Origin: Mayamaea pseudoterrestris
Lineage: Eukaryota > Bacillariophyta > Bacillariophyceae > Sellaphorales > Sellaphoraceae
Reading direction: 5' to 3'
Length of the DNA stretch: 64,000 bases
NCBI GenBank assembly: GCA_027923505.1
Contig: BROI01000001.1
Location: forward strand, 89,501 to 153,500
This document shows, piece after piece, positions 1-53,953 of the stretch; the first letter of the stretch is position 1, and every line of letters begins with the position of its first letter. The translations under genes were made by a program, and so were the position numbers. Below the pieces are notes generated by a model. That model ran no database searches. It was not told where the DNA came from and was given only the letters and a program-made list of their open reading frames with translations.

Positions 1-3000
1 TTGGACCACCACTGGGGGAAGAACTTGGTGTTGCACTTGGACTGGAGCTTGGGGAGATGCTGGGTGATGCGCTTGGTCCAGAGCTGGGGGAGTTACTGGG
101 ACTAGCACTAGGTGACGCACTGGGACCAGTGCTGGGCGATGCACTTGGACTAACACTTGGTGAGGCACTGGGACTGGCGCTTGGAGATGCACTGGGTGTT
201 TCACTTGGACTAGCACTTGGTGAAGAACTGGGTGTTTCACTGGGGGTGGTGCTTGGGCTAGTACTTGGTAAGCTGCTGGGGGAAGCACTTGGCGAGGAGC
301 TTGGTGATCCACTTGGTGGACTGCTTGGTGACGTACTAGGCGCACTGCTGGGTGAGGCGCTAGGTGATCCACTGGGTGAAGAGCTTGGTGATCCACTGGG
401 TGTAGCACTGGGTGATGCACTGGGTGACTCACTTGGTGTGGCACTAGGAGACTCACTAGGTGATGCACTGGGTGACTTGCTTGGGGAAGCACTGGGTGAT
501 TCACTTGGTGATGCACTGGGTGTTTCACTTGGAGATGCACTGGGAGATGCACTGGGTGACGCACTGGGTGATTCACTTGGTGATGCACTCGGCGACTCAC
601 TGGGGGATGCACTGGGAGAAATACTGGGCGAAGTACTTGGTCCAGAGCTTGGTTCCAGACTAGGTGGTGAACTTGGACCACCACTGGGGGAAGAACTTGG
701 TGTTGCACTTGGACTGGAGCTTGGGGAGATGCTGGGTGATGCGCTTGGTCCAGAGCTGGGGGAGTTACTGGGACTAGCACTAGGTGACGCACTGGGACCA
801 GTGCTGGGCGATGCACTTGGACTAACACTTGGTGAGGCACTGGGACTGGCGCTTGGAGATGCACTGGGTGTTTCACTTGGACTAGCACTTGGTGAAGAAC
901 TGGGTGTTGCACTGGGGGTGGTGCTTGGGCTAGTACTTGGTAAGCTGCTGGGGGAAGCACTTGGCGAGGAGCTTGGTGATCCACTTGGTGGACTGCTTGG
1001 TGACGTACTAGGCGCACTGCTGGGTGAGGCGCTAGGTGATCCACTTGGTGAAGAGCTTGGTGATCCACTGGGTGTAGCACTGGGTGATGCACTGGGTGAC
1101 TCACTTGGTGTGGCACTAGGAGACTCACTAGGTGATGCACTGGGTGACTTGCTTGGGGAAGCACTGGGTGATTCACTTGGTGATGCACTGGGTGTTTCAC
1201 TTGGAGATGCACTGGGTGATGCACTGGGTGACGCACTGGGTGATTCACTTGGTGATGCACTCGGCGACTCACTGGGGGATGCACTGGGAGAAATACTGGG
1301 CGAAGCACTTGGTCCAGAGCTTGGTTCCAGACTAGGTGGTGAACTTGGACCACCACTGGGGGAAGAACTTGGTGTTGCACTTGGACTGGAGCTTGGGGAG
1401 ATGCTGGGTGATGCGCTTGGTCCAGAGCTGGGGGAGTTACTGGGACTAGCACTAGGTGTTGCACTGGGACCAGTGCTTGGTGATGCACTTGGACTTACAC
1501 TTGGTGAGGCACTGGGACTGGCGCTTGGAGATGCACTGGGTGTTTCACTTGGACTAGCACTTGGTGAAGAACTGGGTGTTTCACTGGGGGTGGTGCTTGG
1601 GCTAGTACTTGGTAAGCTGCTGGGGGAAGCACTTGGCGAGGAGCTTGGTGATCCACTTGGTGGACTGCTTGGTGACGTACTAGGCGCACTGCTGGGTGAG
1701 GCGCTAGGTGATCCACTGGGTGAAGAGCTTGGTGATCCACTGGGTGTAGCACTGGGTGATGCACTGGGTGACTCACTTGGTGTGGCACTAGGAGACTCAC
1801 TAGGTGATGCACTGGGTGACTTGCTTGGGGAAGCACTGGGTGATTCACTTGGTGATGCACTGGGTGTTTCACTTGGAGATGCACTGGGTGATGCACTGGG
1901 TGACGCACTGGGTGATTCACTTGGTGATGCACTCGGCGACTCACTGGGGGATGCACTGGGAGAAATACTGGGCGAAGCACTTGGTCCAGAGCTTGGTTCC
2001 AGACTAGGTGGTGAACTTGGACCACCACTGGGGGAAGAACTTGGTGTTGCACTTGGACTGGAGCTTGGGGAGATGCTGGGTGATGCGCTTGGTCCAGAGC
2101 TGGGGGAGTTACTGGGACTAGCACTAGGTGTTGCACTGGGACCAGTGCTTGGTGATGCACTTGGACTTACACTTGGTGAGGCACTGGGACTGGCGCTTGG
2201 AGATGCACTGGGTGTTTCACTTGGAGTAGCACTTGGTGAAGAACTGGGTGTTTCACTGGGGGTGGTGCTTGGGCTAGTACTTGGTAAGCTGCTGGGGGAA
2301 GCACTTGGCGAGGAGCTTGGTGATCCACTTGGTGGACTGCTTGGTGACGTACTAGGCGCACTGCTGGGTGAGGCGCTAGGTGATCCACTGGGTGAAGAGC
2401 TTGGTGATCCACTGGGTGTACCACTGGGTGATGCACTGGGTGACTCACTTGGTGTGGCACTAGGAGACTCACTAGGTGATGCACTGGGTGACTTGCTTGG
2501 GGAAGCACTGGGTGATTCACTTGGTGATGCACTGGGTGTTTCACTTGGAGATGCACTGGGTGATGCACTGGGTGACGCACTGGGTGATTCACTTGGTGAT
2601 GCACTCGGCGACTCACTGGGGGATGCACTGGGAGAAATACTGGGCGAAGCACTTGGTCCAGAGCTTGGTTCCAGACTAGGTGGTGAACTTGGACCACCAC
2701 TGGGGGAAGAACTTGGTGTTGCACTTGGACTGGAGCTTGGGGAGATGCTGGGTGATGCGCTTGGTCCAGAGCTGGGGGAGTTACTGGGACTAGCACTAGG
2801 TGTTGCACTGGGACCAGTGCTCGGTGATGCACTTGGACTTACACTTGGTGAGGCACTGGGACTGGCGCTTGGAGATGCACTGGGTGTTTCACTTGGACTA
2901 GCACTTGGTGAAGAACTGGGTGTTGCACTGGGGGTGGTGCTTGGGCTAGTACTTGGTAAGCTGCTGGGGGAAGCACTTGGCGAGGAGCTTGGTGATCCAC

Positions 3001-3890
3001 TTGGTGGACTGCTTGGTGACGTACTAGGCGCCCTGCTGGGTGAGGCGCTAGGTGATTCACTGGGTGAAGAACTTGGTGATCCACTGGGTGTAGCACTGGG
3101 TGATGCACTGGGTGACTCACTTGGTGTGGCACTAGGAGACTCACTGGGTGATGCACTGGGTGACTTGCTTGGGGAAGCACTGGGTGATTCACTTGGTGAT
3201 GCACTGGGTGTTTCACTTGGAGATGCACTGGGTGATGCACTGGGTGACGCACTGGGCGATCCACTTGGTAATGCACTAGGCGACTCACTGGGGGTAGCAC
3301 TTGGTCCAGAGCTTGGTTCCAGACTAGGTGGTGAACTTGGACCACCACTAGGGGAAGAACTTGGTGTTGCACTTGGACTGGAGCTTGGGGAGATGCTGGG
3401 TGATGTGCTTGGCCCAGAGCTGGGGGAGTTACTGGGACTAGCACTAGGTGATGCACTGGGACCAGTGCTCGGTGATGCACTTGGACTAACACTTGGTGAG
3501 GCACTGGGACTGGCGCTTGGAGGTGCACTGGGTGTTTCACTGGGACTAGCACTTGGTGAAGAACTGGGTGTTGCACTTGGGGTGGTGCTTGGGCTAGTAC
3601 TTGGTAAGCTGCTGGGGGAAGCACTTGGTGAGGAGCTTGGTGATCCACTTGGTGAACTGCTTGGTGACATACTAGGCGCACTGCTGGGTGAGGCGCTAGG
3701 TGATCCACTGGGTGAAGAGCTTGGTGATCCACTGGGTGTAGCACTGGGTGATGCACTGGGTGACTCACTTGGTGTGGCACTAGGAGACTCACTGGGTGAT
3801 GCACTGGGTGACTTGCTTGGGGAAGCACTAGGAAGTGCACTTGGTTGACTGCTTGGTGCAGCACTGGGAGATTTACTTGGTGATGAACTT
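1..3890 (-). repeat. SPSx array with 672-bp higher-order unit, over five copies, continues off window
   Basis: SPSASPSx repeats are organised in a 672-bp (224-aa) unit with equivalent points at 460, 1132, 1804 and 2476. The copy around 3130-3300 has lost several steps. Copies differ at only a few positions. The array reaches position 1 still in frame, so neither its copy number nor the protein C-terminus can be read here. Confidence 0.95.
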
Positions 3891-6800
3891 GGTGATGCAC
3901 TGGGTTCTGCGCAAATGGCTGTGATGCTAAAATTGTCAACACCATAGGATTCAAAACCAATTGTTAATCGCCCATCACTTTGAAACCATCCATTTGGAAT
4001 GATAAGGCCCACCTTGTTTTGAGTCTCAGACAAGCTAATTACTGAGACCCAAATATCACCTAAATAACCTTCTTGGGTCGCCTCAGTAGAACTTATATTG
4101 AATGACCCCAAGTCAAGGTAAGCATGTTGTTGTAAGCGGACCAAAGCTGAACTTGTATCTTCTAGCTCATAAAGGTCAAATGTAATGCTCAATGCAGCAG
4201 CATCACTAGGAACTTCAAATGATTTGGAAGTAACAGAAGGCAATCCATCAGTTGAAGGTATAGGGGTCAAAAATTTGCCATTTATAGCATCTTCACTGGT
4301 GTCACCATAGGTCCAGCTAGTGGCCTCACCATCCTCAAAGTCATATGAAAAAAGGGCCATGTCATCTTCAGCATCTGCACATTCTAGCTTGCTGAATGGT
4401 GGAGCAAAACTCAATCCTGAAGGCGTTGGCATATGAGCACATCGTTCATCTTCAAGGACACATGGAACAGTAAAGTCGTATCTGATAGTGTAATCTCCCG
4501 ACACAAGTGGTGTACATCTTGAAGGGATGTTCTTAACAACATCTGAGCTGCTAAACCTGCCATCCTGGACATAGATAGTAAAGGTTGCCATCCCATTGAC
4601 ACATTTGGCAACATATTTTCCGTATTCGCCTGGTGCAACATTTGATTTTGTATCACAGGTTTGCACACCATTAGATGCAGATGTGTAATCTGTTGAGACA
4701 AGACAAATAGGGCCTTGGGACCAAGTCTGTGATATTCCAACAGTAACAGTGGTCTTGTCTTGATACAAAATTTTTGTTGGAAGAAAGTCAAATTCTTCAC
4801 TTGGGTTGCTAGATGTGAACACAATATCTGGAATGCAGTCAAAAGTAGGGGATGAACTTGGTTCCAGACTAGGTGGTGAGCTTGGACCACCACTGGGGGA
4901 AGAACTTGGCGGCGCACTTGGAGTGGAGCTTGGGGAGATGCTGGGTGATGCGCTTGGTCCAGAGCTGGGGGAGTTACTGGGACTAGCACTAGGTGATGCA
5001 CTGGGGCCAGTGCTTGGTGATACACTTGGACTTACACTTGGTGAGGCACTGGGACTGGCGCTTGGAGATGCACTGGGTGTTTCACTTGGACTAGCACTTG
5101 GTGAAGCACTGGGTGTTGCACTGGGGGTGGTGCTTGGGCTAGTACTTGGTAAGCTACTGGGGGAATCACTTGGCGAGGAGCTTGGTGATCCACTTGGTGG
5201 ACTGCTTGGTGATGTGCTAGGTGATCCACTGGGTGAAGAGCTTGGTGAAGCACTGGGTGATGCACTGGGTGACTCACTTGGTGTGGCACTAGGATACTCA
5301 CTAGGAGATGCACTGGGTGAGTTGCTTGGCAAAGCACTGGGTCTTTCACTTGGCAATGCACTGGGTGATGCACTTGGAGACGCACTGGGTGATTCACTTG
5401 GTGAAGCACTGGGCGATTCACTGGGGGATGCACTGGGAGAAATACTGGGCGTAGCACTTGGTCCAGAGCTTGGTTCCAGACTAGGTGGTGAGCTTGGACC
5501 TCCACTGGGTGCAGAGCTTGGTGGTGCACTTGGACTAGAGCTTGGGGAGATACTGGGTGATGCGCTTGGTCCAGAGCTGGGGGAGTTACTGGGACTAGCA
5601 CTAGGTGACCCACTGGGAACAGTGCTTGGTGATGCACTTGGACTAACACTTGGTGAGGCACTGGGACTGGCGCTTGGAGATGCACTGGGTGTTTCACTTG
5701 GACTAGCACTTGGTGAAGAACTGGGTGTTGCACTGGGGGTGGTGCTTGGGCTAGTACTTGGTAAGCTGCTGGGGGAAGCACTTGGCGAGGAGCTTGGTGA
5801 TCCACTTGGTGGACTGCTTGGTGACGTACTAGGCGCACTGCTGGGTGAGGCGCTAGGTGATCTACTGGGTGAAGAGCTTGGTGATCCACTGGGTGTAGCA
5901 CTGGGTGATGCACTGGGATTGCTGCTAGGTGAGCCACTTGGTAAAAAGCTGGGGCTGTTGCTTGGACTAGAACTGGGAGTCTGGCTTGGAGTTCCACTAG
6001 GAATAGTACTGGGGACTGCACTTGGTGTTCCGGTGGGCTGACCACTGGGTGTAGTACTCGGAGAGGAGCTTGGTGCTGCACTAGGTTCTGCACAAATGGC
6101 TGTGATGCTAAAATTGTCAATGCCTACATTGGAATCAAATCCGACTGTCAGCCTTCCGCGTGCTGAAAACCACTCATCGGGAATGATCAATGTCACCTTG
6201 TTAACAGTTTGACTTGTACTGACTATGGAGACCCACACATTTCCAAAATAGCCTTCAACAGAAGCCTCGGCAAGTGATGGGCTGAACACTCCTAGATCCA
6301 AGTAAGCATGCTGAATGCGAACCAACGTTGTGCTTGTATCTTGCAGCTCATAAAGATCGAAAGATACAGTCAATGCTGCAGCATCCATAGGAACAACAAA
6401 GGATTTGCTCATGGAATTGTCAGCTGGGGTCAGGAACTTGCCAAATTCAACATTTTCTGATATCAGCCCATATTGCCATGCAGATAAGGCTTCATTATTT
6501 TCAAAGTCGTCAGTTACAAGATGCATGTCAGCTTCTGATTCTTCACAAAGTGGGCTGACAGGAGGAGCACATCTATCATCTTCAACAAGACATGGGATGA
6601 CAAATTCATATGACACAATTTCACCACCCTTGACCAGAGGCGCGCATTGCAAAGGAATGTTCTCCACAACATCACTGCCTCCAAATATGCCATCTTGCAC
6701 AAACACTGTCATAGAAGCCTTTCCGTCCACACAAACAACATCATACTTCGCAAATTCTCCAGCTGGGACATTATCCCTTGTATCACAGGTCTCTTGGCCA

Positions 6801-9800
6801 TCCACTGTGGAAACATAGTTTGTGGCTAGTAGACAAATGGCATTACTAGACCAAGTCTGTGACAAAGTCACAGCAACTGATTCAGTGTCTTGTGAAATGA
6901 TTTCAATTGGGAGAAAGTCAAATTCCTTAGGGCTGCTGGAAGAGAATGTAATGTCAGGAATACAGTCATATGTAGGAGATGAGCTTGGTTCAAGACTAGG
7001 TGGGGAACTGGGACCTCCACTGGGTGCAAGGCTTGGTGAACCACTGGGAACTGCACTGGGTGCAATGCTTGGTGATGCACTTGGCCCACTGCTTGGGCTA
7101 GCACTTGGTGATGAGCTTGGTGTGGCACTGGGCAAGGCACTTGGTCCCCCACTGGGAGCACTACTGGGTGATGCACTAGGCAGTACACTGGGAGCTGAGC
7201 TGGGTTGAGCACTTGGTGCGGTGCTTGGTGATGCACTGGGCCCAGAGCTTGGCACTGCACTGGGAGACAGGCTTGGTGAACTACTAGGAGATCCACTTGG
7301 TGAGCTGCTTGGCTCCAAACTTGGTGTGGAGCTAGGTGGGCTGCTTGGAGTGGCACTGGGCAAGCTGCTAGGGGCTCCACTTGGACCAGCGCTTGGCTGT
7401 GAGCTTGGCTGGGCACTAGGAGCACTGCTGGGTGTGCTGCTTGGGAGGGAACTGGGTGTTGCACTTGGCAAAGAGCTTGGGATGCTGCTTGGCAGGGCAC
7501 TGGGACTACTGCTTGGGATTCCACTTGGAGATGCACTTGGACCACCACTTGGGGAAGCACTAGGTGAACTGCTGGGTTCTTCACTAGGGGAGATGCTTGG
7601 TGACACACTTGGGCCAGAGCTTGGCTCAAGACTAGGTGGGGAACTGGGACCTCCACTGGGTGCAAGGCTTGGTGAACCACTGGGAACTGCACTAGGCGCA
7701 ATGCTTGGTGATGCACTTGGTCCACTGCTTGGGCTAGCACTTGGTGATGAGCTCGGTGTGGCACTGGGCAAGGCACTTGGTCCCCCACTGGGAGCACTAC
7801 TGGGTGATGCACTAGGCAGTACACTGGGAGCTGAGCTGGGTTGAGCACTTGGTGCGGTGCTTGGTGATGCACTGGGTCCAGAGCTTGGCACTGCACTGGG
7901 AGACAGGCTCGGTGAACTACTAGGTGATCCACTTGGTGAGCTGCTTGGCTCTAAACTTGGTGCAGAGCTAGGTGGGCTGCTTGGAGTGGCACTGGGCAAG
8001 CTGCTAGGGGCTCCACTCGGACCAGCGCTTGGCTTTGAGCTTGGCTGGGTACTAGGAGCACTGCTGGGTGTGCTGCTTGGGAGGGAACTGGGTGTTGCAC
8101 TTGGCAAAGAGCTTGGGATGCTGCTTGGCAGGGCGCTGGGACTACTGCTTGGGATTCCACTTGGAGATGCACTTGGACCACCACTTGGGGAAGCACTAGG
8201 TGAACTGCTGGGTTCTGCACTAGGGGAGATGCTTGGTGACACACTTGGGCCAGAGCTTGGCTCAAGACTAGGTGGGGAACTGGGACCTCCACTGGGTGCA
8301 AGGCTTGGTGAACCACTGGGAACTGCACTGGGCGCAATGCTTGGTGATGCACTTGGTCCACTGCTTGGGCTAGCACTTGGTGATGAGCTTGGTGTGGCAC
8401 TGGGCAAGGCGCTTGGTCCCCCACTGGGAGCACTACTGGGTGATGCACTAGGCAGTACACTGGGAGCTGAGCTGGGTTGAGCACTTGGTGCGGTGCTTGG
8501 TGATGCACTGGGTCCAGAGCTTGGCACTGCACTGGGAGACAGGCTTGGTGAACTAGTGGGTGATCCACTTGGTGAGCTGCTAGGCTCCAAACTTGGTGCG
8601 GAGCTAGGTGGGCTGCTTGGAGTGGCACTGGGCAAGCTGCTAGGGGCTCCACTCGGACCAGCGCTTGGCTGTGAGCTTGGCTGGGTACTAGGAGCACTGC
8701 TGGGTGTGCTGCTTGGGAGGGAACTGGGTGTTGCACTTGGCAAAGAGCTTGGGATGCTGCTTGGCAGGGCACTGGGACTACTGCTTGGGATTCCACTTGG
8801 AGATGCACTTGGACCACCACTGGGGGAAGCACTAGGTGAACTGCTAGGTTCTGCACTAGGGGAGATGCTTGGTGACACACTTGGGCCAGAGCTTGGCTCA
8901 AGACTAGGTGGGGAACTAGGACCTCCACTGGGTGCAAGGCTTGGTGAACCGCTGGGAACTGCACTGGGTGCAATGCTTGGTGATGCACTTGGTCCACTGC
9001 TTGGGCCAGCACTTGGTGATGAGCTTGGTGTGGCACTGGGCAAGGCACTTGGTCCACCACTGGGAGCACTACTGGGTGATGCACTAGGTAGTACACTGGG
9101 AGCTGAGCTGGGTTGAGCACTTGGTGCTGTGCTTGGAGATGCACTGGGTCCAGAGCTTGGCACTGCACTGGGAGAGAGGCTTGGTGAACTACTAGGTGAT
9201 CCACTTGGTGAGCTGCTTGGCTCCAAACTTGGTGCAGAGCTAGGTGGGCTGCTTGGAGTGGCACTGGGCAAGCTGCTAGGGGCTCCACTCGGACCAGCGC
9301 TTGGCTGTGAGCTTGGCTGGGTACTAGGAGCACTGCTGGGTGTGCTGCTTGGGAGGGAACTGGGTGTTGCACTTGGCAAAGAGCTTGGGATGCTGCTTGG
9401 CAGGGCACTGGGACTACTGCTTGGGATTCCACTTGGAGATGCGCTTGGACCACCACTGGGGGAAGCACTAGGTGAACTGCTGGGTTCTGCACTAGGGGAG
9501 ATGCTTGGTGACACACTTGGGCCAGAGCTTGGCTCAAGACTAGGTGGGGAACTGGGACCTCCACTGGGTGCAAGGCTTGGTGAACCACTGGGAACTGCAC
9601 TAGGCGCAATGCTTGGTGATGCACTTGGTCCACTGCTTGGGCTAGCACTTGGTGATGAGCTCGGTGTGGCACTGGGCAAGGCACTTGGTCCCCCACTGGG
9701 AGCACTACTGGGTGATGCACTAGGCAGTACACTGGGAGCTGAGCTGGGTTGAGCACTTGGTGCGGTGCTTGGTGATGCACTGGGTCCAGAGCTTGGCACT

Positions 9801-12800: not shown

Positions 12801-15800
12801 GGAGCTATTGGGCTTACAGATGGTGAGGTTGTTGGACTTGTGGTTGGTCCACCAGTGGGTGCAACAGTTGGTGACACAGTGGGGCCTCCAGAAGGTGAGA
12901 CTGTTGGGCTGGTGGTTGGTAATCCAGTTGGCACACCCGTGGGAGAAACGGTTGGTGTGCTTGTTACTGGGCTAGCAGTTGGGTTGCCTGGTTCAACAGT
13001 AGGCTGACCAGTTGGGGAGACAGTTGGTCCACCAGTGGGTGCACTTGTTGGTGACACAGTTGGACCACCAGTTGGCCCAGCAGTGGGAGAAGCAGTAGGA
13101 CCACCAGAAGGTGTTGCTGTTGGGCCTCCAGATGGTGATGCAGTTGGCGAGGTAGTTGGTCCACTGGTAGGTGCACCAGTGGGTGCACCAGTGGGTGAAA
13201 TAGTTGGGCTACCAGATGGAGACATAGTTGGAGCACCAGTTGGTGACACAGTGGGGCCTCCAGAAGGTGAGGCTGTTGGGCTGGTGGTTGGTAATCCAGT
13301 TGGCACACCAGTGGGAGAAACGGTTGGTGTGCTTGTTACTGGGCTAGCAGTTGGGTTGCCTGGTTCAACAGTAGGCTGACCAGTTGGGGAGACAGTTGGT
13401 CCACCAGTGGGTGCACTTGTTGGTGACACAGATGGACCACCAGTTGGCCCAGCAGTGGGAGAAGCAGTAGGACCACCAGAAGGTGATGCTGTTGGGCTTC
13501 CAGATGGAGAAACAGTCGGACCAGCAGATGGCGAAACAGTCGGGCCACCAGATGAAGAAACAGTAGGAGATATTGATGGGCCAGATGAAGGAGACGCAGT
13601 TGGGCTACCAGTGGGGGCAACAGATGGTGACCCAGTGGGGCCTCCAGAAGGTGAGACTGTTGGGCTGGTGGTTGGTAATCCAGTTGGCACACCAGTGGGA
13701 GAAACGGTTGGTGTGCTTGTTACTGGGCTAGCAGTTGGGTTGCCTGGTTCAACAGTAGGCTGACTAGTTGGGGAGACAGTTGGTGCACCAGTGGGTGCCC
13801 TTGTTGGTGACACAGTTGGACCACCAGTTGGCCCAGCAGTGGGAGAAGCAGTAGGACCACCAGAAGGTGATGCTGTAGGGCCTCCAGATGGTGATGCAGT
13901 TGGAGAGGTAGTTGGTCCACTGGTAGGCGCACCAGTGGGTGCACCAGTGGGTGAAATAGTTGGGCCACCAGATGGAGAAACAGTTGGGCCACCAGATGGA
14001 GACACAGTGGGGCCTCCAGAAGGTGAGGCTGTTGGGCTGGTGGTTGGTAATCCAGTTGGCACACCAGTGGGAGAAACGGTTGGTGTGCTTGTTACTGGGC
14101 TAGCAGTTGGGTTGCCTGGTTCAACAGTAGGCTGACCAGTTGGGGAGACAGTTGGTCCACCAGTGGGTGCACTTGTTGGTGACACAGTTGGACCACCAGT
14201 TGGCCCAGCAGTGGGAGAAGCAGTAGGACCACCAGAAGGTGATGCTGTTGGGCCTCCAGATGGAGATGCAGTTGGACCAGCAGATGGTGAAACAGTTGGG
14301 CCACCAGATGGAGACACAGTAGGAGATACCGTTGGTCCTCCAGAAGGTGAGACTGTTGGGCTGGTGGTTGGTAATCCAGTTGGCACACCAGTGGGAGAAA
14401 CGGTTGGTGTGCTTGTTACTGGGCTAGCAGTTGGGTTGCCTGGTTCAACAGTAGGCTGACCAGTTGGGGAGACAGTTGGTCCACCAGTGGGTGCACTTGT
14501 TGGTGACACAGTTGGACCACCAGTTGGCCCAGCAGTGGGCGAAGCAGTAGGACCACCAGAAGGTGATGCTGTTGGGCTTCCAGATGGAGAAACTGTTGGA
14601 CCAGCAGATGGCGAAACAGTCGGGCCACCAGATGGAGATACAGTAGGAGATACTGTTGGGCTAGATGAAGGAGACACAGTTGGGCCACCAGTAGGTGCAA
14701 CAGTTGGTGACACAGTGGGGCTTCCAGAAGGTGAGACTGTTGGGCTGGTGGTTGGTAATCCAGTTGGCACACCAGTGGGAGAAACGGTTGGTGTGCTTGT
14801 TACTGGGCTAGCAGTTGGGTTGCCTGGTTCAACAGTAGGCTGACCAGTTGGGGAGACAGTTGGTCCACCAGTGGGTGCACTTGTTGGTGACACAGTTGGA
14901 CCACCAGTTGGCCCAGCAGTGGGCGAAGCAGTAGGACCACCAGAAGGTGATGCTGTTGGGCTTCCAGATGGAGAAACTGTTGGACCAGCAGATGGCGAAA
15001 CAGTCGGGCCACCAGATGGAGATACAGTAGGAGATACTGTTGGGCTAGATGAAGGAGACACAGTTGGGCCACCAGTAGGTGCAACAGTTGGTGACACAGT
15101 GGGGCTTCCAGAAGGTGAGACTGTTGGTCTGGTGGTTGGTAATCCAGTTGGCACACCAGTGGGAGAAACGGTTGGTGTGCTTGTTACTGGGCTAGCAGTT
15201 GGGTTGCCTGGTTCAACAGTAGGCTGACCAGTTGGGGAGACAGTTGGTCCACCAGTGGGTGCACTTGTTGGTGACACAGTTGGACCACCAGTTGGCCCAG
15301 CAGTGGGAGAAGCAGTAGGACCACCAGAAGGTGTTGCTGTTGGGCTTCCAGATGGAGAAACAGTTGGACCAGCAGATGGTGAAACAGTTGGGCCACCAGA
15401 TGGAGATACAGTAGGAGATATTGTTGGGCCAGATGAAGGAGACGCAGTTGGGCCACCAGTGGGGGCAACAGATGGTGAACCAGTGGGGCCTCCAGAAGGT
15501 GTGACTGTTGGGCTGGTGGTTGGTAATCCAGTTGGCACACCAGTGGGAGAAACGGTTGGTGTGCTTGTTACTGGGCTAGCAGTTGGGTTGCCTGGTTCAA
15601 CAGTAGGCTGACTAGTTGGGGAGACAGTTGGTCCACCAGTGGGTGCACTCGTTGGTGACACAGTTGGACCACCAGTTGGCCCAGCAGTGGGAGACGCAGT
15701 AGGACCACCAGAAGGTGATGCTGTTGGGCCTCCAGATGGAGATGCAGTTGGGACAGCAGATGGTGAAACAGTTGGGCCACCAGATGGAGATACAGTAGGA

Positions 15801-18800
15801 GATACTGTTGGGCTAGATGAAGGAGACACAGTTGGGCCACCAGTGGGTGCAACAGTTGGTGACACAGTGGGGCTTCCAGAAGGTGAGACTGTTGGGCTGG
15901 TGGTTGGTAATCCAGTTGGCACACCAGTGGGAGAAACGGTTGGTGTGCTTGTTACTGGGCTAGCAGTTGGGTTGCCTGGTTCAACAGTAGGCTGACCAGT
16001 TGGGGAGACAGTTGGTCCACCAGTGGGTGCACTTGTTGGTGACACAGTTGGACCACCAGTTGGCCCAGCAGTGGGAGAAGCAGTAGGACCACCAGAAGGT
16101 GATGCTGTTGGGCTTCCAGATGGAGAAACAGTTGGACCAGCAGATGGTGAAACAGTTGGGCCACCAGATGGAGATACAGTAGGAGATATTGTTGGGCCAG
16201 ATGAAGGAGACGCAGTTGGGCCACCAGTGGGGGCAACAGATGGTGAACCAGTGGGGCCTCCAGAAGGTGTGACTGTTGGGCTGGTGGTTGGTAATCCAGT
16301 TGGCACACCAGTGGGAGAAACGGTTGGTGTGCTTGTTACTGGGCTAGCAGTTGGGTTGCCTGGTTCAACAGTAGGCTGACTAGTTGGGGAGACAGTTGGT
16401 CCACCAGTGGGTGCACTCGTTGGTGACACAGTTGGACCACCAGTTGGCCCAGCAGTGGGAGACGCAGTAGGACCACCAGAAGGTGATGCTGTTGGGCCTC
16501 CAGATGGAGATGCAGTTGGGACAGCAGATGGTGAAACAGTTGGGCCACCAGATGGAGACACAGTTGGAGATACCGTTGGTCCTCCAGAAGGTGAGACTGT
16601 TGGGCTAGTGGTTGGTAATCCAGTTGGCACGCCAGTGGGAGAAACGGTTGGTGTGCTTGTTACTGGGCTAGCAGTTGGGTTGCCTGTTTCAACAGTAGGC
16701 TGACCAGTTGGGGAGACAGTTGGTCCACCAGTGGGTGCACTTGTTGGTGACACAGTTGGACCACCAGTTGGCCCAGCAGTGGGAGAAGCAGTAGGACCAC
16801 CAGAAGGTGTTGCTGTTGGGCTTCCAGATGGAGAAACAGTTGGACCAGCAGATGGCGAAACAGTTGGGCCACCAGATGGAGATACAGTAGGAGATATTGT
16901 TGGACCAGCAGATGGTGAAACAGTTGGGCCACCAGATGGAGACACAGTAGGAGATACCGTTGGTCCTCCAGAAGGTGAGACTGTTGGGCTGGTGGTTGGT
17001 AATCCAGTTGGCACACCAGTGGGAGAAACGGTTGGTGTGCTTGTTACTGGGCTAGCAGTTGGGTTGCCTGGTTCAACAGTAGGCTGACCAGTTGGGGTGA
17101 CAGTTGGTCCACCAGTGGGTGCACTTGTTGGTGACACAGTTGGGCCACCAGTTGGCCCAGCAGTGGGAGAAGCAGTAGGAACACCAGAAGGTGATGCTGT
17201 TGGGCCTCCAGATGGTGATGCAGTTGGACCAGCAGATGGTGAAACAGTTGGGCCACCAGATGGAGACACAGTGGGAGATACCGTTGGTCCTCCAGAAGGT
17301 GAGACTGTTGGGCTGGTGGTTGGCCCTCCAGTTGGCACACCAGTGGGAGAAACTGTTGGTGTGCTTGTTACTGGGCTAGCAGTTGGGTTGCCTGGTTCAA
17401 CAGTAGGCTGACTAGTTGGGGAGACAGTTGGTCCATCAGTGGGTGCACTTGTTGGTGACACAGTTGGACCACCCGTTGGCCCAGCAGTGGGAGAAGCAGT
17501 AGGACCACCAGAAGGTGATGCTGTTGGGCCTCCAGATGGAGATGCAGTTGGAGAGGTAGTTGGTCCACTGGTGGGTGCACCAGTGGGTGCACCAGTGGGT
17601 GAAACAGTTGGGCCACCAGATGGAGACGTAGTTGGAGCACCAGTTGGTGACACAGTGGGGCCTCCAGATGGTGAGGCTGTTGGGCTGGAGGTTGGTAATC
17701 CAGTTGGCACACCAGTGGGAGAAATGGTTGGTGTGCTTGTTACTGGGCTAGCAGTTGGGTTGCCTGGTTCAACAGTAGGCTGACTAGTTGGGGAGACAGT
17801 TGGTCCACCAGTGGGTGCACTTGTTGGTGACACAGTTGGGCCACCAGTTGGCCCAGCAGTGGGAGAAGCAGTAGGAACACCAGAAGGTGATGCTGTTGGG
17901 CCTCCAGATGGTGATGCAGTTGGACCAGCAGATGGTGAAACAGTTGGGCCACCAGATGGAGACACAGTGGGAGATACCGTTGGTCCTCCAGAAGGTGAGA
18001 CTGTTGGGCTGGTGGTTGGCCCTCCAGTTGGCACACCAGTGGGAGAAACGGTTGGTGTGCTTGTTACTGGGCTAGCAGTTGGGTTGCCTGGTTCAACAGT
18101 AGGCTGACTAGTTGGGGAGACAGTTGGTCCATCAGTGGGTGCACTTGTTGGTGACACAGTTGGACCACCCGTTGGCCCAGCAGTGGGAGAAGCAGTAGGA
18201 CCACCAGAAGGTGATGCTGTTGGGCCTCCAGATGGAGATGCAGTTGGAGAGGTAGTTGGTCCACTGGTGGGTGCACCAGTGGGTGCACCAGTGGGTGAAA
18301 CAGTTGGGCCACCAGATGGAGACGTAGTTGGAGCACCAGTTGGTGACACAGTGGGGCCTCCAGAAGGTGAGACTGTTGGGCTGGTGGTTGGCCCTCCAGT
18401 TGGCACACCAGTGGGAGAAACGGTTGGTGTGCTTGCTACTGGGCTAGCAGTTGGGTTGCCTGGTTCGACAGTAGGCTGACTAGTTGGGGAGACAGTTGGT
18501 CCACCAGTGGGTGCACTTGTTGGTGACACAGTTGGACCACCAGTTGGCCCAGCAGTGGGAGACGCAGTAGGACCACCAGAAGGTGATGCTGTTGGGCCTC
18601 TAGATGGAGATGCAGTTGGACCAGCAGATGGTGAAACAGTTGGGCCACCAGATGGAGACACAGTAGGAGATACCGTTGGTCCTCCAGAAGGTGAGACTGT
18701 TGGGCTGGTAATTGGCACTCCAGTTGGCACACCAGTGGGAGAAACTGTTGGCAAGCGTGTTACTGGGCTAGCAGTTGGGTTGCCTGGTTCAACAGTAGGC

Positions 18801-21800
18801 TGACCAGTAGGGGAATCAGTTGTTTCACCAGTTGGAAATTGTTCTGTTCGTCCCACTGTTTTTATTGTTGGCTCCAAGGTTTGTTCTCTAGTGGGTTGTG
18901 CAGTGGGACTCGTAATGAGTGGTCCACCAGATGGAGATGCAGTTGGAGAGGTAGTTGGTCCACTGGTGGGTGCACCAGTGGGTGAAACAGTTGGGCCACC
19001 AGATGGAGACGTAGTTGGAGCACCAGTTGGTAACACAGTGGGGCCTCCAGAAGGTGAGGCTGTTGGGCTGGAGGTTGGTAATCCAGTTGGCACACCAGTG
19101 GGAGAAACCGTTGGTGTGCTTGTTACTGGGCTAGCAGTTGGGTTGCCAGGTTCAACAGTGGGCTGACCAGTTGGGGAGATGGTTGGTCCACCAATGGGTG
19201 CTCCTGTTGGTGGCAAAGTAGGCAAACTAGTTGGTGATACTGTAGGAAGAATAGTTGGACCACCTGAAGGAAAGAATGTTGGCAAGGTAGATGGAGTTGG
19301 TGTAGGACCCGATGATGGAGTTGCTGTAGGTCCAGATGTTTTGGGTAATGAAGGTGCAGCAGTAGGTCCTACACTGGAAGGGACTGATTGAAAAGCAACA
19401 GGCACCGCACTGGTTGGAGCTGGTGTGCCAGAATAAGCCTCCGTGCCTCCACTGGTTGGAGCTGGTGTGCCAGAGTAAGCCTCCGTGCCTCCACTGGTTG
19501 GAGCTGGTGTGCCAGAGTAAGCCTCAGTGCCTCCACTGGTTGGAGCTGGTGTGCCAGAGTAAGCCTCAGTGCCTCCACTGGTTGGAGCTGGTGTGCCAGA
19601 GTAAGCCTCCGTGCCTCCACTGGTTGGAGCTGGTGTGCCAGAGTAAGCCTCCGTGCCTCCACTGGTTGGAGCTGGTGTGCCAGAGTAAGCCTCCGTGCCT
19701 CCGCTGGTTGGAGCTGGTGTGCCAGAGTAAGCCTCAGTGCCTCCGCTGGTTGGAGCCGGTGTGCCAGAGTAAGCCTCAGTGCCTCCACTGGTTGGAGCTG
19801 GTGTGCCAGAGTAAGCCTCCGTGCCTCCACTGGTTGGAGCCGGTGTGCCAGAGTAAGCCTCCGTGCCTCCACTGGTTGGAGCTGGTGTGCCAGAGTAAGC
19901 CTCCGTGCCTCCGCTGGTTGGAGCTGGTGTGCCAGAGTAAGCCTCAGTGCCTCCGCTGGTTGGAGCCGGTGTGCCAGAGTAAGCCTCAGTGCCTCCACTG
20001 GTTGGAGCCGGTGTGCCAGAGTAAGCTTCCGTGCCTCCACTGGTTGGAGCCGGTGTGCCAGAGTCAGCCTCAGTGCCTCCGCTGGTTGGAGCCAGTGTGC
20101 CAGAGTAAGCCTCAGTGCCTCCGCTGGTTGGAGCTGGTGTGCCAGAGTAAGCCTCAGTGCCTCCAATGGTTGGAGCCGGTGTGCCAGAAAAAGCCTCCGT
20201 GTCTCCAATGGTTGGAGCTGGTGTGTCAGAGTAAGCCTCCGTGCCTCCACTGGTTGGAGCTGGTGTGCCAGAGTAAGCCTCAGTGCCTCCACTGGTTGGA
20301 GCCAGTGTGCCAGAGTAAGCTTCCGTGCCTCCACTGGTTGGAGCCGGTGTGCCAGAGTCAGCCTCAGTGCCTCCACTGGTTGGAGCCAGTGTGCCAGGGT
20401 AAGCCTCAGTGCCTCCGCTGGTTGGAGCCGGTGTGCCAGAGTAAGCCTCAGTGCCTCCGCTGGTTGGAGCCGGTGTGCCACGGTAAGCCTCAGTGCCTCC
20501 GCTGGTTGGAGCCGGTGTGCCAGAGTAAGCCTCAGTGCCTCCACTGGTTGGAGCCGGTGTGCCAGAGTAAGCCTCAGTGCCTCCACTGGTTGGAGCCGGT
20601 GTGCCAGAGTAAGCCTCAGTGCCTCCACTGGTTGGAGCTGGTGTGCCAGAGTAAGCCTCCGTGCCTCCACTGGTTGGAGCTGGTGTGCCAGGGTAAGCCT
20701 CAGTGCCTCCGCTGGTTGGAGCCGGTGTGCCAGAGTTAGCCTCTGTGCTTCCACTGGTTGGAGCTGGTGTGCCAGAGTCAGCCTCAGTGCCTCCGCTGGT
20801 TGGAGCCGGTGTGCCAGAGTAAGCCTCCGTGCCTCCACTGGTTGGAGCTGGTGTGCCAGAGTAAGCCTCCGTGCCTGCACTGGTTGGAGCTGGTGTGCCA
20901 GAGTAAGCCTCAGTGCCTCCACTGGTTGGAGCCAGTGTGCCAGAGTAAGCTTCCGTGCCTCCACTGGTTGGAGCCGGTGTGGCAGAGTCAGCCTCAGTGC
21001 CTCCGCTGGTTGGAGCCGGTGTGCCAGGGTTAGCCTCGGTGCCTCCGCTGGTTGGAGCCGGTGTGCCACGGTAAGCTTCCGTGCCTCCACTGGTTGGAGC
21101 TGTTGTGCCAGAGTAGGCCTCCGTGCCTCCACTGGTTGGAGCTGGTGTGCCAGAGTAAGTCTCCGTGCCTCCACTGGTTGGAGCCAGTGTGCCAGAGTAA
21201 GCCTCAGTGCCTCCACTGGTTGGAGCTGGTGTTCCAAAGTATGCCTCAGTGCCTCCGCTGGTTGGAGCCGGTGTGCCACGACTTAATTGTTGGACGTCAT
21301 CTGATGGTGCTGGAGTGCCAGTGAATTCTTTAGATCCTTCACTTGATGGAGCTGGCGTTCCATTTAGAGACTGGTCCCCTTGACTTGTTGGTGCAGAAGT
21401 TTCTGCTGTAAGGCTATCACTAGAAGGAGCCGGCGTTCCATTTGAAGACTGGTCCCCTTGACTTGTTGGCGCAGAAGAAGGAGCCGGCGTTCCATTTGGA
21501 GACTGTTCTGCTCCACTTGTTGGCAACGGAGTACCTGTGATTCGAAGAGCTCCAGCAGATGGAGCTGGCGTTCCAATTGATGACTGGTCCCCTTCACTCG
21601 TTGGCGCTGGAGTGCCAGTAATTTTAAGACCCTCAGTAGATGGAGCTGGTGTTCCGATTGATGACTGGTCCCCTCCACTTGTTGGCGCTGGAGTTCCAGT
21701 TGTTTGAAGACCTCCAGTAGATGGAGCTGGCGTTTCAAGTAATAACTGATCCCCTTCACTTGTTGGCGCTGGAGTGCCAGTAGTTTGAAGACCCTCAGTT

Positions 21801-24360
21801 GATGGAGCTGGTGTTCCGATTGGCGACTGGTCCCCTCCACTTGTTGGAGCTGGCGTTCCAGTAGTTTGAAGACCTCCAGTTGATGGAGTGGGCGTTCCGA
21901 TTGACGACTGGTCCCCTTCACTTGTCGGTGCTAGAGTGCCAGTCTTTTGTAGACCTCCAGTTGATGGAGCTGGGGTAGCCGTGTTTTGATCATTCCTGCT
22001 TGAAGGACCTGGAGTGCTGCGCATTACCTGATCACCGTTTCCAGATGGAGATGGTGTTGGCATAACAAACACACTTTCGCATGCACAAGCTGCCTTGGTG
22101 GTAAATTTACAAGCCTTCTTTCTCTCTTGGAAATGCTGGTCGCGGCACAACGCATTCGACGCTGAATCTGACGCCGAAAAAGTCTCATCGTAAACGTAAA
22201 TCTCGAGTGCAGCGTATCCACTTTCATCACAGTCAGCTGTAAAGGTCATTTCAGTACTTGGAAGAATGTTTTGCTGGACAACACAACCTGTACTTCCCGC
22301 ATCAGTGAAGACGGCACCAAGTCGCGACAAACTTTTGTCATCAGAAGTCCAAGACTGATTGACGACAAACGAAACTGCAACCTCAGATCGTGAAAGAATT
22401 TTGACGGCTGTTCCATACACTTGACATGAGGAACCAATCTCCATGAAAAGGGGAACATCCTTTCTATCCTTACACTCGAGAGCGCTTGGAGAGCGGACTC
22501 GGGATGGAGCAGCAGTTCTATTCGGCGTCTGCGATCCTTCAGAGGTCGGAGGCGGCGTTCCACCCGGCTGCGATCCTTCAGAGGTCGGAGGCGGTGTTCC
22601 ACCCGGCTGCGATCCTTCAGAGGTCGGAGGCGGCGTTCCACCCGGCTGCGATCCTTCAGAGGTCGGAGGCGGCGTTCCACCCGGCTGCGATCCTTCAGAG
22701 GTCGGAGGCGGCGTTCCACCCGGCTGCGATCCTTCAGAAATTGGAGGCGGCGTTCCACCCGGCTGCGATCCTTCAGAAGTCGGAGGCGGTGTTTTAGTCA
22801 ACTGCGATCCTTCCAAGGTCGGAGGCGGCGTTCCAACCGGCTGCGAGTTTCGAGCAAGAGTCGTGACAGTAGACGCGCAGGCACAAGCTAACGACATACT
22901 GTAGCCACAAGTCGATTTTTGGCTTCCACCAAATCTATGCTTCGAGCAAGCGTCAGGAACCACAGCAGAGTCCTCTTGAAGAGTCCACCCAGTGTACGAA
23001 ACATAAAGTTCAATGTCGGCGTAACCGTCGACACATTCTGCTTCGTAGGTAATGGCCTTGTTCTTCTCGACGTGCATGCTGGCCTTGCAGTCATCCTCCC
23101 CGTCTGCAACAGTCACGACTGTCCACCAACTGAGATGGTCTTCAATCTGCCATGTGTTACTGACTGTAAAAGAGACCTTCTTGTCATCGCGCGCCGTGAC
23201 TTCGATGGGAGCGTCGCCGTAAGCACACGAGCTACCGGCAACTAGATCCAGCGTACCGTCCTTTCGATCCGCGCAGGCAGCGGAAAGAGGCAGCTTCAAG
23301 GTCGGCTTCTCGTCGCCAGCTGGAGCTTGCGTTGGGTCAAGGGTTTGAGACGGCATGGACGAGGCACAGAAACGTGGATCAATCATGTGCCCTAAGCAAG
23401 AAGGAGGAGGAGAAGTCAAAAAATGAAAATAAAGCGGAATATGTGAGACAACGGATTCGCGAAATGCATGCAATGTTTCATCGTTACGAATTACGTACCG
23501 TAGCAGTCGTCTCGGGTGGGCATGTCCGTCCTGCAAACGAGATCAAGGTTTCAACAATTCACAATGAGACTGACATTTGACGAGGCGACTCGCTATGCAC
23601 GACTCTCATGAAAATACGTACGCGATGAATCCTTCAGGGTACTCGTTCAAAAACGAAGAAGGAGCCGGCGTAGGGACTTGCGTCATGACTGGACTTGGCG
23701 TCGGCTTGTTCGTGGCCTCGTTGGAGGCAGAACTCGGCGACGGCGCATCGGCCATGATAATAGTATTTTCACTTTCATTTGTATTGTTATTTTCCTGCAG
23801 ACCGCGATCGGCGGCAGCATTATCTAGCTGGCGGCAATCGGGGGCGTCAGGATCTGTAGTAAAGGTGAAGGAAAGATCAAATGCAAGGTGTGAGAGAGGC
23901 GATGAGATAGGGTGATTCATTACTGCTCCGACTTGATGTCAGACGATCGCCTCACGAAAGGTACAGTCGCTCCTTCACCGAAACATTTCAGGACACGTCA
24001 AATGCGACTCTCATTCCAAATAGCGATACAATAATAGCACTTACGTTCCAAGCATAATTTGACGAGTTCCTTCCAATCCAAACCTTGGGCGGATCGAGAT
24101 CCGGCGGTCGGTGGAAACGGATTGGAAGCAACTGGTGGGCACATGCTTCGTTTGGCAGGGTCATTGTAGTCGCAATCGAGACGACCTTCCTTACGGTTTC
24201 GGTTCAAGTTAAGTCCAAAGTGACTAAAGAACGAAAGCGATTTGCGTTCGAAAACGCCAGGAATCGTCTGGAAAAGCGATGACACGGTCTCACTCAGACC
24301 GGCCTCGGAAGCTTGCGCGCAGAGCGCCAAGAGAACTAGAGAGCGTAGGGGGTGCAACAT
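1..24360 (-). CDS. Giant secreted mucin/adhesin-like repeat protein, 3' end beyond window
   Basis: Four exons are read on the minus strand: 24045-24360, 23622-23853, 23499-23530 and 1-23391 (continuing off the edge). Donors are GTAAGT, GTACGT and GTACGT, each acceptor ends in AG, and the phases fit (1, 2, 1). The ATG at 24360 opens a classic signal peptide (MLHPLR, hydrophobic SLVLLALCA, then QASEA). Exon 4 keeps one frame for about 7,797 codons: I checked that codon first bases stay at the same position modulo 3 in five separated non-repeat domains and at the left edge, and I find no in-frame stop. Order from the N-terminus: Cys-containing head, Cys modules 1 and 2 with short Pro repeats, a 14-aa repeat array, a PTxSPT array, a beta-type domain, an SPSx array, Cys module 3 plus jelly-roll 1, SPSx, Cys module 4 plus jelly-roll 2, SPSx. 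Every array unit length is a multiple of three. Ser/Thr/Pro density suggests heavy O-glycosylation and an extended rod at the cell surface or in secreted mucilage (inference). No membrane anchor is seen within the window. Confidence 0.85.
3905..4395 (-). other. Jelly-roll-like module 2 of the giant protein
   Basis: Paralogue of jelly-roll module 1. It includes SYDFEDG, KSFEVPSDAAALSITFDLYE, HAYLDLGSF and GVDNFSITAICAEPSA. Both copies change directly into SPSx repeats after ICAEPSA, which marks the duplication boundary. Confidence 0.6.
4455..4842 (-). other. Cys module 4 of the giant protein
   Basis: A close paralogue of module 3: it begins FDCIPDIVF and contains VTVGISQTWS, CLVSTDY, QTCDTKSNV, AKCVNGMATFTIYVQDG and DFTVPC. 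The pair module 3/jelly-roll 1 and module 4/jelly-roll 2 share order and spacing, so a block of about 1 kb or more was duplicated within the gene. Confidence 0.7.
4860..6080 (-). repeat. SPSx array between the two module pairs
   Basis: About 1.2 kb of SPSASPSx repeats are related to the 672-bp units further left but more divergent. They contain roughly two higher-order copies, one with several deleted steps near 5210-5250. The end near 5930-6070 has irregular PSxx steps. The frame matches modules on both sides. Confidence 0.92.
6085..6540 (-). other. Jelly-roll-like module 1 of the giant protein
   Basis: About 150 aa run from DDFEN through the end of NFSITAICAE. The core motifs KSFVVPMDAAALTVSFDLYE, AYLDLGVF and GIDNFSITAIC resemble a MAM/LamG-like beta-sandwich found in bacterial and stramenopile surface proteins. 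No catalytic residues are evident; a carbohydrate- or protein-binding role is inference. Confidence 0.6.
6585..6966 (-). other. Cys module 3 of the giant protein
   Basis: About 127 aa start YDCIPDIT and include VAVTLSQTWS, CLLATNYVSTVDGQETCDT, VVCVDGKASMTVFVQDG and a closing FVIPC. It is most similar to module 4 (same CIPDI start, LSQTWS/ISQTWS, CDTxxNVxxGE). It is followed directly by jelly-roll module 1. Confidence 0.7.
6990..12000 (-). repeat. SPSx array with 636-bp higher-order unit, eight copies
   Basis: Ser/Pro dipeptide-based repeats (SPSSxPSx) are arranged in a 636-bp unit (212 aa). Equivalent points lie at 7221, 7857, 8493, 9129, 9765, 10401, 11037 and 11673. Copies are almost identical; some share private variants (7221 and 10401 share several), pointing to unequal exchange or block duplication. 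The last copy near 11850 runs into older, irregular SPS sequence beside the beta-type domain. Confidence 0.95.
12000..12535 (-). other. Beta-type extracellular domain in the giant protein
   Basis: This non-repetitive segment of about 175 aa opens KPCEYFNVTFAND and ends SYLGLCIDVTETP. It contains GLPRILDSSASLG, then NPNIGNVLIVQNG, then GVIVFTFSQPIHEVVQIGIL. The LPRIxDS...NxGNVLIVQ pattern resembles a beta-sandwich domain seen in bacterial exported and surface proteins (from memory, not searched). It separates the PT array from the SPSx arrays. Confidence 0.6.
12540..19390 (-). repeat. PTxSPT array with 324/372/384-bp higher-order units
   Basis: Pro/Thr/Ser repeats of PTVSPTGAPTSGPT type are organised into about sixteen higher-order units between 13000 and 18800. 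Units are marked by the recurring phrase QPTVEPGNPTASPVTSTP. Spacing between equivalent points is 324, 372 or 384 bp, all multiples of 12, so length variants arise by gain or loss of whole 4-aa steps. A non-PT island at about 18800-18900 (LEPTIKTVGRTEQFPTGETT) interrupts the array in frame. Edges at 12540-12750 and 19170-19390 are older, irregular PT sequence. Confidence 0.92.
19390..21290 (-). repeat. 42-bp tandem array, unit APTSGGTEAYSGTP, about 45 copies
   Basis: About 45 head-to-tail copies of a 42-bp unit encode APTSGGTEAYSGTP. Copies differ mostly by single substitutions (GCC/GCT, TCC/TCA, occasional missense such as AYRG or AYFG). There are no length changes, so the frame is kept throughout. 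Each unit carries five or six Ser/Thr residues, one Tyr and one acidic residue. Confidence 0.95.
21290..22050 (-). repeat. Alternating 14-aa/13-aa Pro-rich repeats
   Basis: Tandem units alternate between GTPAPTSEGDQSSI (42 bp) and GTPAPSTGGLQTT (39 bp), with variation in both. The array becomes more regular towards 21290, where it passes into the strict 42-bp array. This suggests the 14-aa unit was later amplified alone (inference). Confidence 0.85.
22065..22480 (-). other. Cys module 2 of the giant protein
   Basis: About 138 aa run from CKDRKDVPLF to ACACES. The opening CxDRKD and the closing ACAC match module 1 closely, and the core reads SFVVNQSWT, later ADCDESGYAALEIYVYDETF. It is therefore the nearest relative of module 1, consistent with duplication of a module-plus-linker unit at the N-terminal end. 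Function unknown. Confidence 0.7.
22520..22850 (-). repeat. 39-bp tandem repeat, 13-aa unit GTPPPTSEGSQPG
   Basis: About eight tandem copies of a 39-bp unit encode GTPPPTSEGSQPG or close variants. The unit nearest Cys module 1 is the most diverged (TLEGSQLTK type) and the central copies are nearly identical. The array lies between Cys modules 1 and 2 and is in frame with both. Confidence 0.9.
22862..23290 (-). other. Cys module 1 of the giant protein
   Basis: A non-repetitive segment of about 140 aa begins CADRKDG and ends CACAS. It contains the signature FTVSNTW followed by AECVDGYADIELYVSYTGW. The same order (xVSxTW, then CVDGxAxxxxYVxD, then C...C.Y....C) recurs in modules 2-4, so these are paralogous domains inside one protein. 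The paired cysteines suggest a disulphide-stabilised extracellular fold. I do not recognise a named family. Confidence 0.7.
23392..24044 (-). other. Three introns and two small exons at the 5' end of the giant gene
   Basis: The introns are 23854-24044 (191 nt), 23531-23621 (91 nt) and 23392-23498 (107 nt). They flank exon 2 (232 nt) and a 32-nt micro-exon 3. Acceptors read CTACAG, TTGCAG and GCTTAG on the minus strand. Joining them gives ...KLCLE|HPDAPDCRQLDN... and ...GFIA|TDMPTRDDCYG|HMIDPRF..., and exon 2 already carries short PSPSS/PTPSP stretches. Splice positions are read by eye from consensus and phase, not from transcripts. Confidence 0.7.
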
Positions 24361-42588: not shown

Positions 42589-42951
42589 TGTCGTGCCAAC
42601 AGTTGCTGTTTTCGAATGGCGAGACCCTTTTTAGTAAAGCCGTTGGAATCGCGTTGATTAGTCTCCAATGTTCGGCTTGTTAGTAAAGTAACTGGGCGTC
42701 TAATACAAATTGTTCAATTATTAGTTAATAGCTTTGAAGGTTTAAGATATGGGATGAAGTGCAGTGCGAGTGGATCCGGTAGCTAACAGTGAAGGCACTT
42801 GCGTAAAAATGTCGCATCGTTTTCTAAACAAAACGGGCAAGACTGAAATGACTCAGTATTCATCATGATGAATGTCATAAATGACTTGGCCCCTTCGCGC
42901 GACACGACCGCCACATTTTCTTTTTGGCGTGACCATGAGATTCGAACGACC

Positions 42952-53271: not shown

Positions 53272-53953
53272 GGTTGTATGATGCATGCATGTATAGCCTT
53301 GATATATTCGCGGTCGATGGAGGTCGGAATGTAGCGAGTTCGCGAAGCGTGCGTAAAAACGGGTTGAATTGGGATGGAAAGAATCGCTTCGTCGCTTCAG
53401 TGTCAATCAATATCTCATCCTACTTGCTTCGCTACTCTATTCTTCGCTTGTCTTTTCTCGTAGCCTTTTAGATCCCGCCGCAAAATCTGCCAAGATCCTA
53501 CGCAGCGACGTCGATGATTGTTTGTGGGTCTCGTCGCGGCGTCTGTCGTGGTGCGTCATAGTCAGAGCGAGAACCGGTACGATCAGTTAGTCTCGGTAAG
53601 ACATGCAGGACTCTCGGGCACGTCCCGGTAGGTAAAAAAGGAATGATCCGTCTACCAATAGGTGGCACAATTAGGCCAATGCTTTGGAATGAACACGATC
53701 AATCATCTGCCTGCTCTCTAAACGTGCCAGAGTTTGATTCCAGAGTCCAGGTGTGTGGAAGGAGTCTTTACCTGGACGGGACACAGAACCTTTATGCCCG
53801 CGGAAGGAGTCTACCATGCCGCATCAAAAATCAGTAAGTCGCAAAGAATTTGCACGAGTGATGAAATATTATACGAGTACTCATTATATATTTACACATA
53901 GAGAAGATATTCTAATCGCCCTACCGTCAAAACCGGGCCATTTTGCTTTGACG
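53272..53953. other. Intergenic, 0.7 kb
   Basis: Lies between the start of the ITPK gene and the stop of the Nup133 gene (both minus strand). A TATA-like stretch (TATATCAAGG on the minus strand, near 53300-53310) is close to the ITPK start. An 11-bp direct repeat GGAAGGAGTCT occurs near 53758 and 53804. No gene recognised. Confidence 0.45.

Follow-up and report, generated by a model that had tools for sequence, protein, structure and literature searches.

A predicted 10,722-residue, mucin-like modular protein of the diatom Mayamaea pseudoterrestris and its candidacy as a mucilage tether

Large modular proteins are held responsible for the strength and elasticity of diatom mucilage strands (PMC11420354). 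Sawtooth patterns recorded by atomic force microscopy (AFM) on the pads of Toxarium were ascribed to modular proteins (PMC3821603), and two giants have been named, both in one species. These are CaTrailin4 (about 900 kDa) and Ca5609 (more than 1 MDa), contained in the adhesive trails of Craspedostauros australis and described as large, modular, about 2 um long and able to reach across the 300-500 nm raphe slit (PMC11420354). This report addresses a giant gene on contig BROI01000001.1 (C1) of Mayamaea pseudoterrestris, found in a window of 64,000 nucleotides (C1:89501-153500) and followed by searches of the whole genome, 30.6 Mb in 41 contigs. The species belongs to the diatom class Bacillariophyceae (order Sellaphorales), which agrees with the diatom-like source that an original prediction had proposed from the letters of the window, and we take it to be a raphid, gliding diatom. 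The product of the gene, called the giant below, is a predicted modular protein of 10,722 residues. The reading that we favour, with moderate confidence, is that of one gene encoding a secreted, mucin-like, multi-module tether of raphid-diatom mucilage.

With CaTrailin4 the giant, at 1.02 MDa and with repeated modules, shares the megadalton class, the modular build and a gliding type of diatom as its source (PMC11420354, PMC10713564). The two differ in that the ice-binding-like beta-helix predicted for CaTrailin4 (PMC10713564) was not detected in the giant by Pfam. The protein scan covered six segments, residues 195-377, 484-668, 3818-3998, 5667-5960, 6376-6686 and 9075-10722, with residues 1-194 and the repeat arrays outside it. 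The Ice_binding family matched neither these segments nor the genome, and the test is a weak one, as the controls also matched nowhere in the genome; the ice-binding-like relation of CaTrailin4 itself is described as invisible to sequence tools (PMC10713564). Ca5609, which is termed exceptionally large and modular, resembles the giant in size class, and the frustule protein CaFAP1 resembles it in mucin-like make-up, both compared by description (PMC11420354). The GDPH-domain proteins of Amphora and Seminavis have been proposed as secreted, adhesive diatom proteins (PMC7335047, PMC8027222), and in this they are like the giant. They differ from it in that the GDPH motif is absent from all 10,722 residues, and in that the vWD domain, present in part of their members, found no match at E 1 in the six scanned segments. 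Nitzschia inconspicua is also reported to have no GDPH proteins (PMC8329260). Since neither GDPH nor an ice-binding domain was detected, and since Ca5609 was compared by description, the giant is presented as like these systems, and membership of their families is not claimed. We infer by analogy that it may work like CaTrailin4 and Ca5609.

The frame of the giant gene is open on the minus strand of the window at 2..23536, for 7,845 codons (open reading frame scan and translation), and runs beyond the left window edge into the flanking contig, of which 50 kb was examined, to a stop at C1:81303-81305, 8.2 kb outside. A four-exon model gives a protein of 1,019,608 Da with a pI of 4.19. Exon 1 (24045..24360, minus strand, like every feature of the gene given below) starts with the ATG at 24360 and encodes the N-terminus MLHPLRSLVLLALCAQASEA, judged by eye to be signal-peptide-like; its boundaries were set from GT-AG signals. 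Exon 2 (23622..23853) and the 32-nt exon 3 (23499..23530) were placed by GT-AG boundaries and open frame, and exon 4, the last, begins at 23391 behind its acceptor, fills 1..23391 of the window and continues to the stop, 31,589 nt in total. The three introns, of 191, 91 and 107 bases, are all GT-AG, and the splices, judged from these signals and the frame alone, are plausible. The original prediction had described one exon of at least 23.39 kb open in a single frame, whose end lay out of its reach; the open frame is borne out, with a single terminal stop in exon 4, and the end is now located at C1:81303. The three GT-AG introns and the MLHPLRSLVLLALCAQASEA start make its spliced, signal-peptide-led 5' exons plausible, and the mass of the model bears out its figure of about 95 Da per residue. 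It was right about giant size, although its about 8,000 codons or more, or about 0.75 MDa, fell below the model. A second copy of exon 1 was not found in the whole genome, where it matched itself alone. The motifs CCCTAA and TTAGGG are absent from the first 5 kb of C1, so that a subtelomeric place of the gene is not supported; diatom telomeres can differ, which limits this check (PMC8329260).

The coding frame of exon 4 contains one stop, the terminal one, and the other five frames contain 124, 674, 610, 170 and 514, with a mean of 299 and a minimum of 274 in 20 simulations of a first-order Markov control. Repeats whose lengths are divisible by three make it easier for any frame to remain open, and for this reason the differences between copies were examined. 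In the array of 636-nt units described below, third positions hold 98 of 157 differences, and single codon changes are synonymous in 83 cases and non-synonymous in 31. The same count gives 361 synonymous versus 106 non-synonymous changes in the 672-nt array, 72 versus 42 in the 42-nt array (lag 42) and 293 versus 217 in the 384-nt array (ungapped, lag 384), all of these being counts over non-independent copies made without a neutral control. Among the four module pairs M1 to M4, the third codon position is the most divergent in all six pairwise comparisons. The excess of third-position and synonymous differences between copies points to protein-level selection on the giant frame, repeats included.

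About 3,000 residues lie outside the arrays. They hold six cysteine (Cys) modules and five jelly rolls, together with one single module, a conserved C-terminal region and, at the very end, a Cys tail. Cys modules stand near the N-terminus, and pairs of Cys module and jelly roll stand in mid-protein and towards the C-terminus. Cys module 1 (22868..23290, residues 228-368) matches Cys module 2 and the Cys halves of M1 to M4 at E values of 3e-16 to 2e-4, and Cys module 2 (22070..22489, residues 495-634) matches Cys module 1, M2, M3 and M4, also in its Cys spacing, which is largely preserved between copies. Module pair M1 (6086..6970, residues 5668-5962) is 55% identical over 315 columns to M2 (3905..4843, residues 6377-6689), and M3 and M4 occupy residues 9080-9370 and 9395-9684. 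After M4 follow the conserved region, interrupted by an inserted domain of about 160 residues (10078-10235), the fifth jelly roll (near 10472-10640) and the Cys tail (10655-10722). The single module (12017..12529, residues 3815-3985) is beta-rich by eye, has no Pfam family and, in the genome search, matched nothing but itself. Past residue 30, no 19-residue stretch of the whole protein exceeds 1.55 on the Kyte-Doolittle scale, and thus the chain shows no sign of a membrane span or of a hydrophobic GPI-type end. Together with the signal-like start, this would fit a secreted protein, as had been predicted.

Six long Pro/Ser/Thr arrays account for 7,697 residues, of which 3,439 are Ser or Thr, 1,882 Pro, 226 acidic and 34 basic, and the giant thus has the long Pro/Ser/Thr domains of mucin-like proteins. 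Array 1 (22523..22840) repeats the 39-nt unit PPPTSEGSQPGGT, array 2 (21472..21973) a unit of 81 nt, or 27 residues, and array 3 (19408..21278) the 42-nt unit GGTEAYSGTPAPTS, in 44.5 copies. Array 4 (12521..18799) consists of PTxxPT/PS tetrads in a 384-nt higher-order unit, array 5 (6974..11977) of PSxx tetrads in a 636-nt unit with 96.4% identity at lag 636, and array 6 (1..3913, continuing beyond the window edge) of PSxSPSx tetrads in a 672-nt unit. A short PS array with a peak lag of 612 nt lies between M1 and M2 (4847..6091). The kinds counted by unit length are therefore six, of 39, 81, 42, 384, 636 and 672 nt, and not the five first proposed; all array copy numbers derive from one assembly. 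A fully extended chain measures about 0.31 nm per residue, and at this value the arrays would be about 2.4 um long if fully extended. Opposite the PS array at the window edge, a plus-strand frame of 1,281 codons (3-3848) is most likely a repeat shadow and not a gene.

The modules had been proposed as folded repeat units. The Cys modules and jelly rolls are true repeats by sequence, and the jelly roll is backed by a predicted structure: in the M1 model, with a mean predicted local distance difference test (pLDDT) score of 82.8, the jelly-roll beta sandwich resembles carbohydrate-binding modules and MAM domains by a fold search that barely tests the Cys half of the pair. Part of the Cys module is spanned by DUF7633 (PF24636), for which the cut-off is 27 bits. 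It scored 27.0 bits in the genome search and 16.2 to 24.5 bits, all below cut-off, where it matched in the protein scans, which gave no match in Cys module 1; at E 0.1 it matched 7 of 15 module copies. PF24695 found no match across the whole genome, and all NCBIfam matches were far below cut-off. Weak matches to SSI, PITM1-3 and MucBP_2, also below cut-off, were treated as chance. Searches of PDB sequences with the C-terminal region, the tail, the module pair and the inserted domain returned nothing convincing; the tail gave six weak matches to thioredoxin-like chains (E 0.4 to 0.96). Neither the module set of the giant nor its Cys tail received a functional name in the libraries searched. A beta-propeller had been guessed for residues of about 9725-10470 and was dropped, as the model of this region, made from a database relative (P0004), has a mean pLDDT of 41.1; no fold is claimed for the C-terminal region. 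A bacterial or viral source of the inserted domain gained no support: a tblastn search for this domain found no relative in the prokaryote genome collection (10 pattern-matched stretches) or in viral contigs (2), and since one strict peptide was used, distant prokaryote or viral relatives may have escaped it. The Cys tail likewise had no relative in viral contigs (12 pattern-matched stretches).

Database relatives were searched with the C-terminal part of 1,648 residues, which gave at least 6 related proteins among 8,000 scored, and with residues 1040-1648 of this part, which gave at least 8 among 7,990; both searches scored the candidates sharing most words, so that the counts are lower bounds. 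Combined, the relatives are nine, P0001 to P0009: the giant's own deposited end, six proteins without a stated organism and two from Seminavis robusta. The Cys tail is present in eight of them, P0006 stopping short of it, and paired Arg residues stand 16 to 46 residues upstream of the tail in six of these eight, being absent from both Seminavis proteins. The inserted domain is present in P0004 and by eye seems to be missing at the same place from P0002, P0003, P0005 and P0007, and it was therefore gained or lost within the family. The Seminavis proteins, P0008 and P0009, both annotated as 'expressed unknown', share the Cys tail with the giant, and P0008 also shares the jelly roll and may contain relatives of the inserted domain, at 21% identity. 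They differ from the giant in their lengths of 1,319 and 1,124 residues, in having no giant arrays and, in P0009, in a hydrophobic, membrane-span-like stretch seen by eye after the tail.

P0001 (MPSEU_000001600) is the one deposited model found, in searches that were not aimed at shorter models from the N-terminal or middle portions. It spans 1,631 residues, the last sixth of the giant: Met-Pro precedes a stretch identical to residues 9094-10722, and the Met that opens it is the one at residue 9088. The ATGCCA in the DNA ends 12 nt ahead of the matching place, so that the model requires a 12-nt intron within a Cys module. A start inside a Cys module and an intron of this length are taken as a gene-finder artefact. 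No M1-bearing protein of about 4,290 to 13,640 residues was found at E 0.001 among 795 database candidates. Within the searches made (these candidates and one partial model), the claim of a previously undescribed protein is thus upheld at full length, whereas the kind of protein is already known from another diatom.

Within the genome, the one match found for the Cys tail is the giant gene itself. Relatives of the module pairs occur, as lower bounds, at C1:915 kb, C35:173-176 kb, C16:122-140 kb and C4:1085-1090 kb. Two of these relatives were read and are secreted-looking proteins with no long arrays, one of 964 residues with three Cys and jelly-roll pairs (L020:3238-6132) and one of 714 residues with two (L021:4856-7000); they are simpler relatives of the giant. 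The inserted domain, which is Cys-rich, has nine copies at C1:48070-78026, just downstream of the giant gene. They share its strand and lie in frames that also encode KPPTNAPV and PT stalks; the proteins of this stalked cluster are probably secreted. The adjoining position and common strand of the nine copies indicate that the giant ends the cluster and shares its domain. A second cluster of the inserted domain lies at C25:100996-116108, with five matches, one of them with three internal stops, and a weak match lies on C27.

The cell-surface or mucilage/adhesion role first proposed is plausible. The observations behind the tether reading are an uninterrupted frame, modules near the N-terminus, in mid-protein and towards the C-terminus with six kinds of array between them, no hydrophobic stretch resembling a membrane anchor and a Cys tail conserved in relatives. 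As a mechanism, the signal peptide would export the protein, the arrays would be heavily O-glycosylated, the Cys-rich ends would cross-link or anchor it, and the jelly rolls would bind polysaccharide or substrate. The arrays would then serve as micrometre-long spacers, and the molecule would reach across the raphe slit or through the mucilage to give stretchable adhesion, and the paired-basic site ahead of the tail may permit removal of the tail on maturation. Several observations weigh against this explanation. Besides the missing GDPH motif, selection looks looser in the 384-nt and 42-nt arrays, and the poor model of the C-terminal region leaves that part of the chain without a fold. Whole-model Foldseek matches are weak, with template modelling (TM) scores of at most 0.32 among the 50 matches listed, and jelly-roll folds are common, so that the predicted fold is no proof of sugar binding. 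That no second M1-bearing giant turned up among the 795 candidates argues that giants are not common in the family, or that gene models have lost them; such a length could be a trait of this species or be missing from the other models. Finally, a role in a frustule coat or in mating suits the anatomy nearly as well.

The first of these roles, which we consider somewhat unlikely, is that of a cell-wall coat mucin, forming a lubricating or protective layer over frustule and raphe in the manner of CaFAP1 and not adhesive threads. The arrays, rich in Ser, Thr and Pro and poor in charges, are as mucin-like as such a coat would have them, and CaFAP1 may lower frictional resistance (PMC11420354), but the folded modules at several sites of the chain suggest several binding points, beyond the need of a pure lubricant. 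Quite unlikely, in our judgement, is a surface protein of cell-cell or mating recognition, induced in sexual cells or by bacterial contact; the related modules in the two smaller, secreted-looking proteins (964 and 714 residues) and the predicted carbohydrate-binding-like fold would agree with it, and GDPH proteins may also act in cell-cell adhesion during mating (PMC8027222). That one gene was read where there are in truth several, or where assembly or repeats created an artefact, with the C-terminal part a gene of its own as deposited, is very unlikely, for although the deposited protein begins at a Met and 636-nt units 96.4% alike are a hard assembly case, that start falls inside a Cys module and requires the 12-nt 'intron', the frame is unbroken through six unlike arrays, modules near both ends match one another, and single codon changes are mostly synonymous at all four lags tested.

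The tether reading can be carried further, into a proposal that we regard as unlikely as a whole. The Cys tail would mark a family of extracellular diatom tethers in which each genome has a single giant serving as the extensible thread, unfolding of its modules would produce the sawtooth curves known since 2005, and a cut at the paired-basic site of the tail would start assembly; the giant would end a stalked cluster at C1:48-114 kb, with an exchanged domain. Against this stand the absence of a second giant among the 795 candidates and the small size of the Seminavis tail proteins.

Elsewhere in the window, a plus-strand frame at 39775-41184 carries an Amidoligase_2 domain (E 5e-30), from a family whose better-known members are bacterial and fungal, and another at 42865-43956 carries a ShK-like domain (E 2e-5). 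Two ordinary genes encode a class I W/Y tRNA synthetase (45539-47536, plus strand) and an inositol 1,3,4-trisphosphate 5/6-kinase (51529-53406, minus strand).

The deposited model of the giant, which retains its last 1,631 residues, illustrates that gene models can lose most of such genes, and the Cys tail can be used for finding relatives. To the question of how gliding diatoms transmit force through the raphe to a surface, and of which molecules lie behind their stretchy, sticky mucilage, the locus brings a complete candidate sequence of 10,722 residues, whose folded units are defined and can be expressed singly.
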